From contig CALUPY010000003.1 in the NCBI GenBank assembly GCA_944322755.1, positions 1 through 64,000 on the forward strand: a stretch of DNA of 64,000 bases, read 5' to 3'. Each line of letters starts with the position of its first letter. Position 1 is the first letter of the stretch. This document shows, piece after piece, positions 25,622 to 35,780 of the stretch. The translations under genes and the position numbers were made by a program. Under the pieces are notes generated by a model that was not told the origin of the DNA, ran no database searches, and saw nothing but the letters and a program-made list of their open reading frames with translations. The DNA is from Candidatus Gastranaerophilales bacterium (GTDB taxonomy: Bacteria > Cyanobacteriota > Vampirovibrionia > Gastranaerophilales > Gastranaerophilaceae).

Positions 25622-26227
25622 TTGATTAGAAAGTTACTGACACTAACCTTACTATTCATGTTATGCATTATTGCAAGTCCACAAAAAGCAAACTCAGCAC
25701 CGGCATCGAAAGTAACAGTGAAAGAATACATTGTTAAACATTCGATTGAAATGGGCATTGATCCCGCTTTGGGCTTGAGCATAGCGAAAATGGAGTCAGG
25801 TTTTGTCCACGAAAAAAGAAGTCCCTACGGTGCTGTAGGCGTGTTTCAGCTTTTGCCTTCCACAGCAAAAAGAATAGGCTACAATCCCTATTCGCTCTCA
25901 GGCAATATTCAGGGCGGACTCGCTTACTACAAAATGATGTATGAAATGTTCGGCTCAATGGAGCTTGCTCTTGCAGCATACAATGCAGGGCCGGGCAACG
26001 TAAGCAAGTACAAAGGTGTTCCGCCGTTTGCGGAAACAAAAAGATTCGTCAGAGGTATCATGAATGAATACCAGATGCAAAAAGCAAATCCCGATCCGGC
26101 AATCGCAAAATACCAGACAAACAAACCGTCTTTGATGATTGACCGCTCGGCTAACGTATTGAAACAGGTTAACAATGAATATTTCATTACTGATTTGCCT
26201 TTTGTCAGCCTGACTGAATCTATTTAA
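25622..26227 (+). CDS. Lytic transglycosylase, SLT domain, exported
   Basis: A 201-aa peptidoglycan lyase. A signal peptide (MIRKLLTLTLLFMLCIIASP, cleavage likely after NSA) is followed by a compact Slt70-type domain: catalytic Glu in IAKMESGF, then GAVGVFQLLPSTAKRIG and LALAAYNAGPGNVSKY. It would cleave glycan strands in the periplasm. Start is TTG with GAGG 8 nt upstream. A 230-nt structured leader precedes it and an intrinsic terminator follows 45 bp after the stop. Confidence 0.93.
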   Translation: MIRKLLTLTLLFMLCIIASPQKANSAPASKVTVKEYIVKHSIEMGIDPALGLSIAKMESGFVHEKRSPYGAVGVFQLLPSTAKRIGYNPYSLSGNIQGGLAYYKMMYEMFGSMELALAAYNAGPGNVSKYKGVPPFAETKRFVRGIMNEYQMQKANPDPAIAKYQTNKPSLMIDRSANVLKQVNNEYFITDLPFVSLTESI

Positions 26228-28784: not shown

Positions 28785-29816
28785 TCAATTTAAAGATGTT
28801 TCATGTCCTTTATTCTGTAAGTCGCCGTTTTGCATATTTTTTCTGGATGTTCTCAAATCATGTGCACTGTCAATGTCCAGAACAAGTTTGACCAACATAT
28901 GCGTCAAAAGCAGCATCTGAGGTGAGATTCTTGATGTACCTGAAAAGTTTATTTTAGTTTCTTTGGATTCTTCGTTTTGTTCTGTTTTTCTGGAAACATA
29001 AGCAATTTTAGCATTTTTTACAGACGACTCCATTCCAATAGCCGCTTTCAAATCCTCTTTAGGAAACGTTTCTGAACACGTTATTTCAATATTCAAATCA
29101 CTGCCATCTTTAAATAGAAATATTTTTACAACCCCGAAATATTTTGTTGTAATTATTATAGTAATTGTGTCATCTGAGTCTTTATTCCTCTTTTCAGAGC
29201 CTTCTTCGAATCCAATGTTAAATCCTGCATTTTCCGTCAATGGAAGCCACGGAAGATACATAAGCATGATATTTTTCAAAACCTGTGCAGGGTTTGTATC
29301 ACTGACAGCAATACAGGCATTAATTACAGAAGATAGCTCCTTTAACTGCTGTGTATTATAAATACCTGACTGGTTAAGAATAGCAATCATTTTCGCAAGT
29401 TTTTCAACAGCCTCTTTTCCGTTTTCTTTGAGCAACACCACAAGCTTTGAGATATCAAGCGTTTGTGTCATAAGCATTGCGAGTTCTTTTTGGGCAATTT
29501 GTGTTTTTCCGTCTGTAATAACCAATTTTAAAAATTCCTGTATATCGTCCGGAAAGCTAAAAAGCTCTTTCAAAAGTGCGGAACGTTCCATGGCGCTAAG
29601 CTGTTTTAATTGCATCTGGGTCAGCAGGATATTGCTCTGCTGTACAAAATTACGCTGGATATTTTGGACAGTCTCATTGATGATTTTTGCGGTAGTTTTT
29701 TGCGCCTCAACAAATTTTTCTGCGTTAACATTTGCAGCCTGAGTATTGCGCGACTGCTGTCCCGCTACGTAATCAAAGGAACTTTTAATAAACTGACCGA
29801 GATTTATTTCACTCAT
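28785..29816 (-). CDS. Soluble 343-aa protein with FliK C-terminal-like region
   Basis: No signal peptide or membrane segment. Residues 1-190 are helical and Gln/Lys-rich (starts MSEINLGQFIKSSFDYVAG). A motif LMYLPWLPL (185-193) leads into a beta-rich region (about 215-262) reading TITIIITTKYFGVVKIFLF, then LNIEITCSE and EDLKAAIG. This pattern is like the Flg_hook domain of the flagellar hook-length protein FliK, where strands with an LGxVxVxL word precede a helix. The match is by eye and distant. A palindromic operator-like site lies just upstream. A flagellar or type III secretion link is inference, helped by the FlhA-like gene at 33059. Confidence 0.6.
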   Translation of the reverse strand: MSEINLGQFIKSSFDYVAGQQSRNTQAANVNAEKFVEAQKTTAKIINETVQNIQRNFVQQSNILLTQMQLKQLSAMERSALLKELFSFPDDIQEFLKLVITDGKTQIAQKELAMLMTQTLDISKLVVLLKENGKEAVEKLAKMIAILNQSGIYNTQQLKELSSVINACIAVSDTNPAQVLKNIMLMYLPWLPLTENAGFNIGFEEGSEKRNKDSDDTITIIITTKYFGVVKIFLFKDGSDLNIEITCSETFPKEDLKAAIGMESSVKNAKIAYVSRKTEQNEESKETKINFSGTSRISPQMLLLTHMLVKLVLDIDSAHDLRTSRKNMQNGDLQNKGHETSLN

Positions 29817-31165: not shown

Positions 31166-31756
31166 ATGGAAATCGATAAAATTAAAGCAGGTCAGTACAC
31201 TTCATATAAAGTAAAAGACTCTGATGAAACAAAAAAATCAGAAGAAACAGAAGAACAAAATGCTGCCCAGCAGCAAATGACAAATATAGCAAACCAGTTT
31301 TATGCAGATGTGACAGCTGTAAGTACGGATGAAGATGCTACGGTTATACTGGATGAAAGCAATGCAGCCGACAAAGACGGCTATCAGGCTGCAAAGAATT
31401 ATGTAAATTCGTACAACGGCACATCAGAGTCAGCTGAGACAGAAGAAACTGCGATAGCCGCACCAGTCGAAGACGAAACAGCAACAGAAACAGAAGAAAC
31501 AGCTTCCCAAAACACAAATAACGCTGCATTTGCAGACAAAGACGAAGTTTCTCAAGAGGTAGAAAGTCTTATAAAAGACATAAAAACTCAGCTCAAAGCT
31601 AAAGGAGCAACAGACGCAGAGCTGAGCAGGCTTGATTATCTGAGCACACACTTTGATGCGGAGACTTTTTTGAACGACAATCCTGACGCGACCCTAAACG
31701 ACCTTGAAACAGAAATTACAAAAGAAGCGGAAAAACTCACAGACAAGTCACTTTAA
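31166..31756 (+). CDS. Unrecognised 196-aa very acidic protein
   Basis: No known domain, signal peptide or membrane helix. The sequence is dominated by Glu, Asp, Thr and Ala, with EETEEQNAAQQQ near 26-40 and repeats such as ETATETEETA. The C-terminal 75 residues form acidic helices (EVSQEVESLIKDIKTQLK). It begins MEIDKIKAGQYTSYKVKD with AAAGGAG 8 nt upstream. In composition it is like the 248-aa protein at 3675. Divergent from the serpin-like gene. Function unknown. Confidence 0.75.
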   Translation: MEIDKIKAGQYTSYKVKDSDETKKSEETEEQNAAQQQMTNIANQFYADVTAVSTDEDATVILDESNAADKDGYQAAKNYVNSYNGTSESAETEETAIAAPVEDETATETEETASQNTNNAAFADKDEVSQEVESLIKDIKTQLKAKGATDAELSRLDYLSTHFDAETFLNDNPDATLNDLETEITKEAEKLTDKSL

Positions 31757-31813: not shown

Positions 31814-31933
31814 TTATTCCTCGTGTATATTGTTTATATATATACGAGGAATAAATATTAGAGACGAGAAACCTACCACAAACCACGAGGAAAAAACCGA
31901 TTTTGAGGCCCTGTAAATAGGGTCTTTTTTTTT
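31814..31933 (+). ncRNA. Candidate small transcript under a long palindrome (III)
   Basis: TTATTCCTCGTGTATAT (31814-31830) and ATATATACGAGGAATAA (31838-31854) form a 16/17 inverted repeat around a TATA-rich centre of the shared promoter type. About 50 bp later a strong terminator (GGCCCT/AGGGTC, T9; 31905-31933) ends the unit. The middle reads gagacgagaaacctaccacaaaccacgagg and contains no ORF. Either a small RNA of about 80 nt or the long 3' end of the 196-aa gene. It fills most of the 310-bp gap before yaaT. Confidence 0.45.
31905..31933 (+). terminator. Intrinsic terminator before yaaT
   Basis: GGCCCT (gtaaat) AGGGTC with a following run of nine T. Confidence 0.85.
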
Positions 31934-32066
31934 GATTATTACGCCTAAAACGTCTGGAAATTTTAACATCTTAGCAACAGCTTTCAGATATTTTGACTCT
32001 GAGATTTCGGTTTTTAGTTCACCCTGCGGTATTTTTTATGATATTATATTTTTTGAGGAAATATAC

Positions 32067-32987
32067 ATGTTTAAATATGCAGTAAATTTAATAAAAAATT
32101 CATTTCACCCGCTGGACATACCGGAGGGAACAGAGCTTCAATGCGGACAATACATTCTTATCAGGACAGACAAGGGCGAAGAAGCCGCAAAAGTAGTCGT
32201 GGTAAACCATAAAATCGCAAAAATCTGGGAAAAGAAAAAACCACAGCCAATACCGTTTATAAGAGTGATGAATGAACGTGATATTGAAATACTTAATGAA
32301 CTCTCAATTGCTGAAGAAGAGGCGTTTAAAGTCTGCAAAGAACTTGTCTCCCGACACAATCTTAATATGAACCTTACGCAGGCTAAATACACTTTTGATA
32401 AAAGAAAAATCACATTTTACTATACAGCACCGGAACGCGTGGATTTCAGAGGCCTTTTAAAAGATTTAACCCAAGCCTTCAAACGAGTGCGCATTGACCT
32501 GAGACATATAGGAGTAAGGGACGAAACCTCCCTTATGCAGGGCAACGGGCTTTGCGGACGGCCATTCTGCTGCTGCTCGTTTTTAAGAAGTTTTGATTCG
32601 ATAAATATTAAGCTCGCAAAAGATCAGGGAATGCCAATTACTCCGGGGAAAATTTCCGGAACCTGCGGCAGACTTCTGTGCTGCCTTAACTACGAGTATC
32701 CAAACTATCTCGAAGCAGCTAAAGGCATGCCGCCCATCGGCTCTGCGGTCATGACACCAGACGGATTGGGTCGTGTTTGTTCGCTTCACTTTTTGAGTTC
32801 AACCATTGCTGTCAAACTTGAAGACGGAAAAGTCAAAGATTTTACAAAAAATGAAATAGAAATGGTTGATGAAGATGTAAACATTGATATAGATATACAG
32901 GCCAACTCATATCAGGAAGTTTCTGACTACAATGTCGATATAAGACAGCTTGAGGACGACAGAAACAGCTCTACTGGCAATCTATAA
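32067..32987 (+). CDS. ricT: PSP1-domain protein RicT/YaaT
   Basis: A 306-aa PSP1-family protein. Typical parts are AAKVVVVNHKIA, the conserved LKDLTQAFKRVRIDLRHIGVRDE, and the Cys cluster CGRPFCCCSFLRSF followed by GTCGRLLCCLNYEY, which in Bacillus holds an iron-sulfur cluster of the RicAFT complex that guides RNase Y. No RicA or RicF is in the window. The ATG at 32067 has TTGAGGAA upstream; longer frames upstream cross the terminator and are ignored. Followed by the FlhA-like gene. Confidence 0.92.
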   Translation: MFKYAVNLIKNSFHPLDIPEGTELQCGQYILIRTDKGEEAAKVVVVNHKIAKIWEKKKPQPIPFIRVMNERDIEILNELSIAEEEAFKVCKELVSRHNLNMNLTQAKYTFDKRKITFYYTAPERVDFRGLLKDLTQAFKRVRIDLRHIGVRDETSLMQGNGLCGRPFCCCSFLRSFDSINIKLAKDQGMPITPGKISGTCGRLLCCLNYEYPNYLEAAKGMPPIGSAVMTPDGLGRVCSLHFLSSTIAVKLEDGKVKDFTKNEIEMVDEDVNIDIDIQANSYQEVSDYNVDIRQLEDDRNSSTGNL

Positions 32988-33058
32988 TTTCTTATCCCCT
33001 GCTATATTTTATCGCAGCACCAACAAAGTCTTATACAAAGAAACCGGAGGAAATAATA

Positions 33059-34525
33059 ATGCCAAAACAAAAAACACAATACATAATAAAATCTTGTCCC
33101 TCGGATGACACTGTTCAACTTGAAAGCCTTTTGAATTCAATGTCAGCAGAAGGCTGGGATTTGTACACTATGCACGAAGCAGAAGCAGATGACGGATTCT
33201 GTTTCAACTGTATCTTCATAAGAGATGCAGAAAATACAGAACCTGAAAAAGAAGAGGATTTTGACGAAACCTTCGGTTATAAAACAACAATGCAAAAAAT
33301 AATATATACTCAAAATGAGCCTTATGAACGATGTGTGGATATTCAAAGAAAAATTAAAGACAAAAGAAACCGTATCCAGAAAATAAAATCCCTTATTGAC
33401 GAAACATCAGAAGACCAGCGTCACGGACTTAACGAAGAAATGTACAATATAATGGAAGAGCTGAAAACCTTGAGAAAGCAGCTTAATGAAGTAATTTCGC
33501 CGGACATTATGAATGATAAAATCGGACAGGAAAAACTTACGCTAAGACTGAGCGAAGAAATTATAGAACTGGTTAATCCGGACAGCGATGAAGTAAACCT
33601 TATCGCAAAAACCGTAAAACTCCGTCAGAAACTGGCGGATGAGCTTGGATATATTATTCCTAAAATAAAATTCGAAAACTCTGAAACACTTCAAGCAAAC
33701 GAATTTTCTATTGATGTAAGAGGTGTAAGTGCAATTTGCGGCAGAGTATACCCGGGGTATTTGATGTATTTTAAAGACCAGCTAAGTCTCGATAAACTGC
33801 CAAAAAGCGCTATAAAAGACACGGATATCGTTTCAGGAAAACCGGTAATGTGGCTTCCTGAGGAACAAACAAAAAGCTTTTGGGAATCAGGTCAGGACGC
33901 AGCAACTGTAATCATCCGCGCACTCGAATTTATTTGCATCAGATATGTAGACAATCTCTTTGATTATACGGATTTAAACAGATATATAGAAATTGTCGCA
34001 TCACAAAATCTTTTTCTTGTTGAAAATATCATCCCTGATATGGTTTCTGTATCAGAGTTGAAGTTTTTGCTTACCAGCCTGATAAAAGAATATGTTTCCA
34101 TAAAAGATATCACTTTTATATTTGAAAAAATAAACGACAGCACTGAAAGTACAACGAAAGAAGAACTCCTGGCTGACGTGAGATTTGGACTATCGCGCAC
34201 AATATCAAAAAGCGTTGCAAATGAAAACAATATTATTCAGGCATTTGAACTAACAAACGAACACATAAAATATTTTTATGGAAAAATTACTGAAGAGGGT
34301 GAAATTTTCAGATTTGACAATGCAAAAATAAAATCAATCGTTGCTAATATAAATAAAGCAATAGACAAACATGGAATAACCGCACCGAACGTTGTCCTGA
34401 TTGTACCTGAAAACATTCGCTATATAACAAATATGCTTTTTGAACGTGTTATGCACAACGCAAGAGTCATAACAAGAGCAGAAGTTGCTGACGAATTCTT
34501 TGCCCAAATCATAGACAAAGTGTAG
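33059..34525 (+). CDS. Soluble FlhA/SctV C-terminal-domain protein with DUF4177-like N terminus
   Basis: A 488-aa cytoplasmic protein. Residues about 5-57 look like DUF4177 (YIIKSC...LESLLNSMSAEGWDL...FNCIFIRD); 92-148 is a coiled coil; 160-488 matches the cytoplasmic domain of the type III export gate FlhA/SctV: KLRQKLADELGYIIPKIKF (187-205), ANEFSIDVRGVSA, a GKPVMWLPEEQ strand, LKFLLTSLIKEYVSIKDI (334-351), a VRFGLSRTI helix and the closing VVLIVPENIRYITNMLFERV. The eight membrane helices of FlhA are absent. SD CGGAGG is strong. No other export genes lie beside it. Domain assignment is firm by motif order; function unknown. Confidence 0.8.
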   Translation: MPKQKTQYIIKSCPSDDTVQLESLLNSMSAEGWDLYTMHEAEADDGFCFNCIFIRDAENTEPEKEEDFDETFGYKTTMQKIIYTQNEPYERCVDIQRKIKDKRNRIQKIKSLIDETSEDQRHGLNEEMYNIMEELKTLRKQLNEVISPDIMNDKIGQEKLTLRLSEEIIELVNPDSDEVNLIAKTVKLRQKLADELGYIIPKIKFENSETLQANEFSIDVRGVSAICGRVYPGYLMYFKDQLSLDKLPKSAIKDTDIVSGKPVMWLPEEQTKSFWESGQDAATVIIRALEFICIRYVDNLFDYTDLNRYIEIVASQNLFLVENIIPDMVSVSELKFLLTSLIKEYVSIKDITFIFEKINDSTESTTKEELLADVRFGLSRTISKSVANENNIIQAFELTNEHIKYFYGKITEEGEIFRFDNAKIKSIVANINKAIDKHGITAPNVVLIVPENIRYITNMLFERVMHNARVITRAEVADEFFAQIIDKV

Positions 34526-34541: not shown

Positions 34542-35780
34542 ATGAACGAAATCATTAATAACGCAGAAGAAAAAGTCCAAAAATACTTTAAAAAAGTGGA
34601 CAAAATAAAAGAACTCAATCAGGAAAAGGTGCTTAGCGCTTTTCAAAAATACAAAATAGGGCTTGAGCATTTTTCAACAGTAAGCGGATACGGACACGAC
34701 GACATGGGGCGTGAAGCTCTTGACAATGTCTATGCGGATGTTTTTAAAACAGATGAAGCAATTGTTAGAAACCACTTTGTTTCGGGAACTCACGCAATCG
34801 CCTGCGCGCTTTTCGGAAACCTCAGACACGGAGAAAAACTTGTTTCTGTCGTAGGAACGCCCTATGACACAATGGAAGAAGTTATCGGCACTAGAGGAAA
34901 TCTGAGGGCTTCTCTTATAGGACACGGGGTAAAATACGAAGAAGTCGGGCTTGCTAAAAACGAAGAAGGAGAGGAGTTTGCAGACCTCGACGGCATTGAA
35001 AAAGCCGTGGATAAATCCGTAAATATGGTGACAATCCAGCGTTCCCGCGGGTATTCACTACGAAAATCTGTTGATATAGAAACAACAAAAAAAATTATAG
35101 AAATTGTAAAATCAAAAAATCCTGACTGCATATGCTTTGTGGATAATTGCTATTGCGAATTTGTCGAAGAAAAAGAGCCCACAGAGATTGGCGCTGACTT
35201 AGTGGCCGGCTCGCTTATAAAAAACCCCGGCGGAGGGATAGTAGAAGCTGGAGGATACATTGCCGGCAAAGCCGAATATGTAGAGCAGGCAGCCTGCAGA
35301 CTCACCGCACCGGGAATAGGAAGAGAAGGCGGCGCAATGCTAAACCAGCTCAGGTTAATATTTCAGGGTCTTTTTATGGCACCGTCTGTTGTTTCAGAAG
35401 CCATAAAAGGCGCAATACTTGCGTCTCAGGTGTTTGAGGATATCGGTTTTATTTCTACCCCAAAACCGTCTGAACCACGCACTGACCTGATTCAGACCAT
35501 AAAATTCGGTGCACCGGAGCCATTGATGGCATTTTGTAAAGCACTGCAGTACTATTCACCGGTCGAGTCATATCTTACTCCGATTCCGGATGAAGTACCG
35601 GGCTATGACGACAAACTCATCATGGCTGGTGGAAGTTTTATCGAAGGCTCGACAATAGAGCTCTCGGCCGATGGCCCGATGAGACCGCCATTTGCTGCAT
35701 ACATGCAGGGCGGATTAAACTACGCGCACGTAAAAATAGCCTTAAACGGCGTTCTGAAAGAACTCGGCATACAAGGTTAA
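34542..35780 (+). CDS. Methionine gamma-lyase family / aluminium-resistance protein (PLP)
   Basis: A 412-aa PLP enzyme of the family annotated as aluminium resistance or methionine gamma-lyase family. Visible: FVSGTHAIACALFGNLRHG, VVGTPYDTMEEVIG, the aspartate for PLP in CFVDNCYCEFVE and the Schiff-base Lys in AGSLIKNPGGGIVEAGGYI. True substrate in this family is not established. It starts 16 bp after the FlhA-like gene and is probably cotranscribed with it. Confidence 0.92.
   Translation: MNEIINNAEEKVQKYFKKVDKIKELNQEKVLSAFQKYKIGLEHFSTVSGYGHDDMGREALDNVYADVFKTDEAIVRNHFVSGTHAIACALFGNLRHGEKLVSVVGTPYDTMEEVIGTRGNLRASLIGHGVKYEEVGLAKNEEGEEFADLDGIEKAVDKSVNMVTIQRSRGYSLRKSVDIETTKKIIEIVKSKNPDCICFVDNCYCEFVEEKEPTEIGADLVAGSLIKNPGGGIVEAGGYIAGKAEYVEQAACRLTAPGIGREGGAMLNQLRLIFQGLFMAPSVVSEAIKGAILASQVFEDIGFISTPKPSEPRTDLIQTIKFGAPEPLMAFCKALQYYSPVESYLTPIPDEVPGYDDKLIMAGGSFIEGSTIELSADGPMRPPFAAYMQGGLNYAHVKIALNGVLKELGIQG

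Follow-up and report, generated by a model that had tools for sequence, protein, structure and literature searches.

A conserved, soluble paralogue of the FlhA cytoplasmic domain in the Gastranaerophilales and a putative second flagellum-like export system

The orphan gene and its domains

We analysed a 64,000-nucleotide stretch of DNA from a Candidatus Gastranaerophilales bacterium (the window), in which an intact open reading frame at 33059-34525 on the forward strand, stop codon included, encodes a protein of 488 amino acids. A Shine-Dalgarno site, GGAGG, is read from the sequence at 33046-33050 on the same strand, eight bases ahead of the ATG at 33059, and the source genome is 2.19 Mb in size and 99.97% complete. 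An initial annotation of the window had described the gene as whole, with a strong Shine-Dalgarno site, and as flanked by ricT and a gene for a PLP enzyme, all of which agrees with our results: the upstream neighbour (31932-32987, forward strand) is a PSP1/RicT gene (Pfam PSP1, E = 1.1e-27) and the downstream neighbour (34542-35780, forward strand) encodes a methionine gamma-lyase-type PLP enzyme (Pfam Met_gamma_lyase, 4.1e-180). We place both outside the system discussed below. They adjoin the 33059-34525 gene, hereafter the orphan, in the nearest genera only, and a functional link through either of them was dropped because the adjacency is not conserved. Further upstream, 31166-31756 (forward strand) encodes an acidic 196-amino-acid protein with no NCBIfam match and no credible Pfam match.

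The export gates FlhA and SctV begin with a membrane domain, roughly eight helices long, that includes the FHIPEP loop. The Pfam FHIPEP profile aligns with residues 139-479 of the orphan over profile positions 321-655 of 657 (E = 7.8e-48), with the membrane half missing, and no membrane helix is predicted in the protein because its highest hydropathy over 19 residues is only 1.38. Residues 148-488 (33500-34522, forward strand) make up a complete cytoplasmic domain, D1 to D4, covering 94-100% of the corresponding E. coli positions. The FlhA-like stretch had been placed at residues 160-488; it is indeed present, but begins near residue 148, where residues 148-165 (33500-33553, forward strand) correspond to the FlhA linker and the first strand of D1, with P148 at E. 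coli position 351 and M151 at W354. A profile of 28 orphan orthologues retrieved solved FlhA cytoplasmic domains as its top matches (3mix, E = 1.9e-42), and an AlphaFold2 (AF2) model of the orphan (pLDDT 79) matched crystal structures of FlhA-C and SctV-C in Foldseek over the whole domain (E about 1e-21; target TM 0.75-0.83 for FlhA-C structures and 0.70-0.83 across the 50 best matches, including 6ch2, 3a5i and 7amy). These results confirm that the gene at 33059-34525 encodes an entire FlhA cytoplasmic domain lacking the export-gate helices, as the order of its motifs had suggested. Against the curated NCBIfam models it scores 150 bits for FlhA (cut-off 772) and 83 bits for SctV (cut-off 692).

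Three segments, all on the forward strand, precede this domain. Residues 5-57 (33071-33229) form a small beta-alpha-beta-beta domain with pLDDT above 90 in the core of the AF2 model; residues 58-86 (33230-33316) form an acidic linker that is largely disordered (pLDDT below 50 over residues 59-84) and has no invariant column among 29; and residues 87-147 (33317-33499) form a two-helix coiled coil (AF2 helices 88-115 and 118-146) in which 11 of 61 columns are invariant. The pattern and fold of DUF4177 (PF13783) are compatible with residues 5-57, and 8 of 28 members of the orphan family are matched by the DUF4177 model, at best with E = 0.014. When 21 genomes were scanned in six frames with this model, six matches emerged, five of which were orphan N-termini (best E = 2.1e-4), yet the best score, 23.0 bits in G039, falls just below the curated 25-bit cut-off, which none reach. 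The DUF4177-like assignment is therefore recurrent across genomes, with a weak signal per sequence. A fold search of the PDB with the N-terminal domain returned nothing significant. The proposed architecture, with a DUF4177-like domain and a coiled coil ahead of FlhA-C, thus stands as regards the coiled coil and the domain order, while the DUF4177 match itself stays below the cut-off.

Conservation of the orphan and a second export gene set

A survey of related genomes for the same fusion found orphan orthologues of this architecture, nearly all full-length, in 54 of the 58 Gastranaerophilales genomes sampled; the exceptions are G005, G006, G034 (63% complete) and G055. Between close pairs dN/dS ranges from 0.005 to 0.084, mostly 0.03-0.06, and the orphan is under purifying selection. 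Apart from the missing membrane domain, nothing suggests that the gene is an assembly error, a pseudogene or a decaying fragment of a full FlhA, and this explanation is refuted by the conservation of the orphan across the order: the same architecture recurs in separately assembled genomes, the low dN/dS values and the clean start with its Shine-Dalgarno site speak against decay, and no examined relative has a membrane half directly upstream. We consider its probability negligible.

In a search of the phylum with the orphan profile, orphans inside the order were recovered at E = 1e-145 or better, and the best match outside the order had E = 5e-70. The outside matches listed are mostly full-length FlhA, in open frames near 700 amino acids; a number of genomes, chiefly from family f11, contain shorter or partial frames as well. 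Because none of the matches outside the order covers the N-terminal domain, the orphan in this form is order-specific on present sampling. Two f11 genomes, G061 and G089, contain extra partial FlhA-like frames of 211, 308, 321, 388 and 563 amino acids, which are possibly contig-edge fragments or further paralogues.

The initial annotation had also raised the idea of a split gate, with the membrane half encoded elsewhere. A PF00771 search of the source genome found two complete FlhA proteins (FlhA-A and FlhA-B) in addition to the orphan and no separate FlhA membrane half, which rules out a split gate. Of the other gate genes that had been proposed as targets, flhB and fliP/Q/R, this genome has two FlhB and two FliP, and it also has two FliF. 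FlhA-A, on contig C1, scores 858 bits against the 772-bit cut-off for flagellar FlhA. FlhA-B (C14:32785-34899 in G000) scores below the curated cut-offs for FlhA and SctV alike; it is a 704-amino-acid membrane protein encoded in an operon for FliF, a FliG-position protein, FliH, FlhA and FliI.

Across the relatives, one set of export genes, with a long FliP and a FliF scoring near 190 bits, tracks flagellin, which 39 of 59 genomes encode. A second set, with a short FliP and a FliF scoring near 110-125 bits, is also found in flagellin-less genomes of the order. We refer to this second flagellum-like export set as system B; its hook proteins were judged through a rod-domain search, and FliI was followed in some genomes. 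Every one of the 19 genomes without flagellin in the order has retained system B, with G034 (63% complete) giving no FlhA-B and no FliF match. Pooled, the flagellin-less genomes G004, G009 and G012 contain FlgF, FlgG, FlgB, FlgC, FliE, FliF, FliH, FlhA, FlhB, a FliN-type protein, FliP, FliQ and FliR, and the rod-domain search found no strong FlgE in flagellin-less genomes. The corresponding loci are L065:5105-12248, L076:8029-11975 and L195:4229-5323 in G000, and L187, L188, L199, L200 and L201 in flagellin-less genomes. System B FlhA, FliI and FlhB all score below the curated cut-offs for flagellar and injectisome families. Judged from gene content, system B is likely to be a second type III export system of flagellum-like kind, order-wide and filament-less, and this system, together with the order-wide conservation of the orphan, provides the most useful lead on orphan function. 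A separate observation concerns G001, which has 23 flagellin-N matches, several of them within open frames of great length (1439, 1167 and 674 amino acids).

The orphan is carried by 16 of the 19 flagellin-less genomes of the order. FlhA-B occurs without the orphan in G005 (98% complete) and G006 (93%), and older relatives outside the order have FlhA-B and lack the orphan, from which it follows that system B does not need it. Since both are nearly universal within the order, phylogenetic profiling is weak here. Di Rienzi et al. (PMC3787301), who built flagellar trees from 13 genes, list two flhA genes for ACD20, and Soo et al. (PMC4040986) report that six of nine genomes carry only a subset of flagellar genes; both papers took such incomplete sets to mean that a functional flagellum had been lost. 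We infer that the reported subset largely corresponds to system B, and the second listed flhA of ACD20 may be the orphan. Narrow full-text searches of the open-access literature found no paper on a truncated or orphan FlhA, none on a second flagellum in Melainabacteria, and no description of a soluble FlhA paralogue or a second flagellum-like system in this order.

In most genomes the orphan is unlinked to export genes. It lies 4-9 kb from the system B genes for SpoA-FliO-FliP-FliQ-FliR within one set of related loci, as well as in G012, and in G041 and G046, which belong to one genus, it is directly upstream of FliJ-FliK-FlgD-FlgE on the same strand. The latter arrangement was considered as support for system B and rejected because these genes look flagellum A type: there is no strong FlgE in flagellin-less genomes, and G000 has the same cluster away from the orphan. 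Given that the neighbourhood varies between lineages, linkage is suggestive at most and carries little weight. Within the window, a gene about 3 kb from the orphan (28785-29816, reverse strand) is a homologue of the 307-amino-acid gene that heads the flg rod/system B cluster of G046 (blastp E = 4.2e-18 to L082:473-1396). Its product has no credible Pfam match and no NCBIfam match; it and its 307-amino-acid homologue are possibly FliK-like, and a link to the orphan is uncertain. About 7 kb from the orphan, a lytic transglycosylase gene (25622-26227, forward strand; Pfam SLT, 7.9e-18) resembles one in the same G046 cluster (E = 5e-27).

Ancestry and retained surfaces

In a tree of 78 FlhA C-terminal domains the orphans form one clade (support 100). 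This clade groups with FlhA-B and related proteins, the joining branch also having support 100, and its position just outside FlhA-B has support 85. Constraining the orphans to group with the FlhA-B proteins of the order gave a tree 6.0 lnL units better than the free quick search, and in this better tree the orphan is sister to FlhA-B. Constraining them to group with FlhA-A was 31.6 lnL units worse, with a p-AU of 0.085, which is not below 0.05; the case for FlhA-B rather than FlhA-A ancestry is therefore strong but not absolute. Long-branch effects are possible because the orphan stem is long. At the linker positions equivalent to E. coli 351 and 354, orphans have P (52 of 53) and M (46 of 53) and all 21 FlhA-B proteins have both, whereas FlhA-A has R or K and V; this signature is an independent mark agreeing with the FlhA-B side of the tree. 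Over the shared region the orphan is about 30% identical to FlhA-B as against 22% to FlhA-A. Taken as a whole, the sequence comparisons indicate that the orphan is a soluble, conserved FlhA-C paralogue of probable B-type ancestry. A role in the motility flagellum (system A), as an accessory component there and not in system B, would suit its position upstream of the flagellum-type genes in G041 and G046, but the orphan persists in most flagellin-less genomes, its identity, tree position and linker are all nearer to FlhA-B than to FlhA-A, and no system A FlhA, FlhB, FliP, FliQ or FliR lies within the examined stretches. We disfavour this role and regard it as improbable.

We compared residues in 53 orphans, 21 FlhA-B and 22 FlhA-A proteins using E. 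coli FlhA numbering. With subdomain limits that we take to be those of E. coli FlhA, the orphan and FlhA-B share 35% identity in D1a and 38% in D3, as against 17% in D2 and 20% in D4; FlhA-B and FlhA-A are 36% identical in D4. These limits are consistent with those of YscV (PMC9163089). FlhA-C is known to form a nonameric ring; the linker, D1 and D3 are retained in the orphan, and G368 is replaced by S in 51 of 53. The fast-evolving D4 and the lost G368 could mean that the orphan no longer forms an FlhA-type ring.

In FlhA, D456, F459 and T490 contribute to the dimple where flagellar chaperones dock and which the linker occupies in one state (PMC8166844). The equivalents of D456 to F459 in the orphan are residues 256-259 (D-I-V-S; 33824-33835, forward strand), where the D is kept and the aromatic residue lost, and the equivalents of T490-H491 are residues 287-288 (R-A; 33917-33922, forward strand). 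Across the 53 orphans the first position is D in 52, F459 is replaced by T (28), S (20), N (3), L (1) or K (1), T490 is mostly R (28), E (11) or K (6), and H491 is kept in 3, compared with all 21 FlhA-B and all 22 FlhA-A proteins. The hydrophobic D456/F459/T490 dimple expected of a chaperone dock is not found, and the suggestion that the domain docks chaperones keeps its conserved D456 but is weakened for the known flagellar mode, with S, T or N at F459 in 51 of 53 and T490-H491 gone. The flagellar dimple site is not conserved in injectisome SctV proteins either (PMC9163089), so another binding mode is possible.

Other, shorter proteins derived from FlhA-C occur in the order, at L068:6042-7823 (G016), L069:6972-7979 (G048), L067:6567-7424 (G027) and L066:7424-8062 (G021). 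In these four inspected cases D1 and D3 are kept, only 12-29% of D2 remains, and D4 is missing in three. The G016 protein (593 amino acids) has an N-terminal domain resembling the FliG-position protein of system B (E = 8e-12 by blastp to the G046 protein), and because G016 has no flagellin this fusion resides in a genome with system B only. Two of the four proteins have a hydrophobic segment of membrane type.

An FlhA-C freed from the membrane could alternatively have been exapted as a cytosolic scaffold or ring unrelated to secretion, with the N-terminal parts providing new partners. Its neighbours, mostly unrelated housekeeping genes that differ between genera, would fit such a fate, as would the lost chaperone pocket, the divergence of D4 (the FliJ/SctO cleft) and of G368, and the fact that system B outside the order does not require the orphan. 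The B-type linker signature and the preferential retention of D1 and D3 are harder to reconcile with it, as are the other FlhA-C-derived proteins of the order, one of them fused to a system B-like domain, and, a few single-match genomes aside, no genome has been established that carries the orphan but lacks an FlhA-type system. Exaptation away from secretion therefore seems unlikely to us.

Possible roles and comparison with known export gates

We propose that the orphan serves system B as an accessory subunit, either a soluble part of the ring or an adaptor, a reading to which we give about an even chance. The orphan would enter, cap or stack on the cytoplasmic ring of FlhA-B through D1, D3 and the linker, the altered D1-D2 pocket would no longer accept flagellar-type chaperones, and the coiled coil and DUF4177-like domain would recruit other partners or substrates. 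Ring contact, an altered pocket and new N-terminal domains would together make it an adaptor that alters the gate's choice of substrates or its timing; both its entry into the system B ring and its function we infer. Sequence and structural model point this way through the fold and its completeness, conservation across the order, the B-side position in the tree, the linker signature, retention of D1 and D3, co-occurrence with system B in flagellin-less genomes, and the shorter FlhA-C-derived proteins of the order, one with a domain resembling a system B part. Against it stand the unconserved neighbourhood, the genomes with FlhA-B and no orphan, the p-AU of 0.085 for the FlhA-A alternative, and the divergence of D4 and G368.

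The same features would also suit a negative regulator or decoy, in which soluble orphan copies would contend for the ring of FlhA-B or for its partners FliH-FliI and FlhB, and keep system B shut until a signal arrives through the N-terminal domain. Keeping D1, D3 and the neighbour-docking linker while losing the flagellar chaperone pocket is what a dominant-negative ring subunit might look like, and the orphan has been lost in single genomes where FlhA-B stays. Such a decoy is not separable by sequence from an accessory subunit; no regulatory link was seen, however, and conservation this strict across the order exceeds what most regulators need, making a decoy quite unlikely in our estimation.

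A broader and more speculative picture may be drawn, in which the Gastranaerophilales universally possess a filament-less, apparently hook-less machine derived from the flagellum, with a gate built of mixed or stacked rings of FlhA-B and freed FlhA-C subunits, namely the orphan and the shorter D1-D3 paralogues. We hold this picture to be rather unlikely; were it true, substrates would be selected by soluble gate subunits that can be exchanged. More generally, the orphan points to bacteria of the animal gut having a second export system of flagellum-like kind.

Among known systems, FlhX of the Campylobacterota is a soluble paralogue of the FlhB cytoplasmic domain that may likewise alter the gate's choice of substrates or its timing. 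By analogy, the orphan may be comparable, being also a separate soluble protein related to the cytoplasmic domain of a gate subunit, although the gate subunit concerned is a different one, FlhB, and we know of no extra N-terminal domains in FlhX. FlhA-B shares the P-M linker with the orphan but is a 704-amino-acid membrane protein of the FliF-FliH-FlhA-FliI operon. FlhA and SctV have so far been studied as a single membrane-anchored ring, and with its altered chaperone pocket the orphan would represent a natural separation of the ring-forming parts (D1, D3) from the substrate-docking parts (D2, D4). Compared with the cytoplasmic domain of FlhA and SctV (the C-terminal half of PF00771; 3a5i, 6ch2, 7amy), the orphan has the same D1-D4 fold, the linker and D456, whereas it lacks the membrane half, has gained an N-terminal domain and a coiled coil, has F459 and T490-H491 replaced and G368 changed to S, and has a diverged D4. 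By its cytoplasmic domain, as judged from sequence, the orphan belongs to the FlhA/SctV superfamily, yet it is not an export gate, because the membrane half is absent and its curated scores lie far below threshold.
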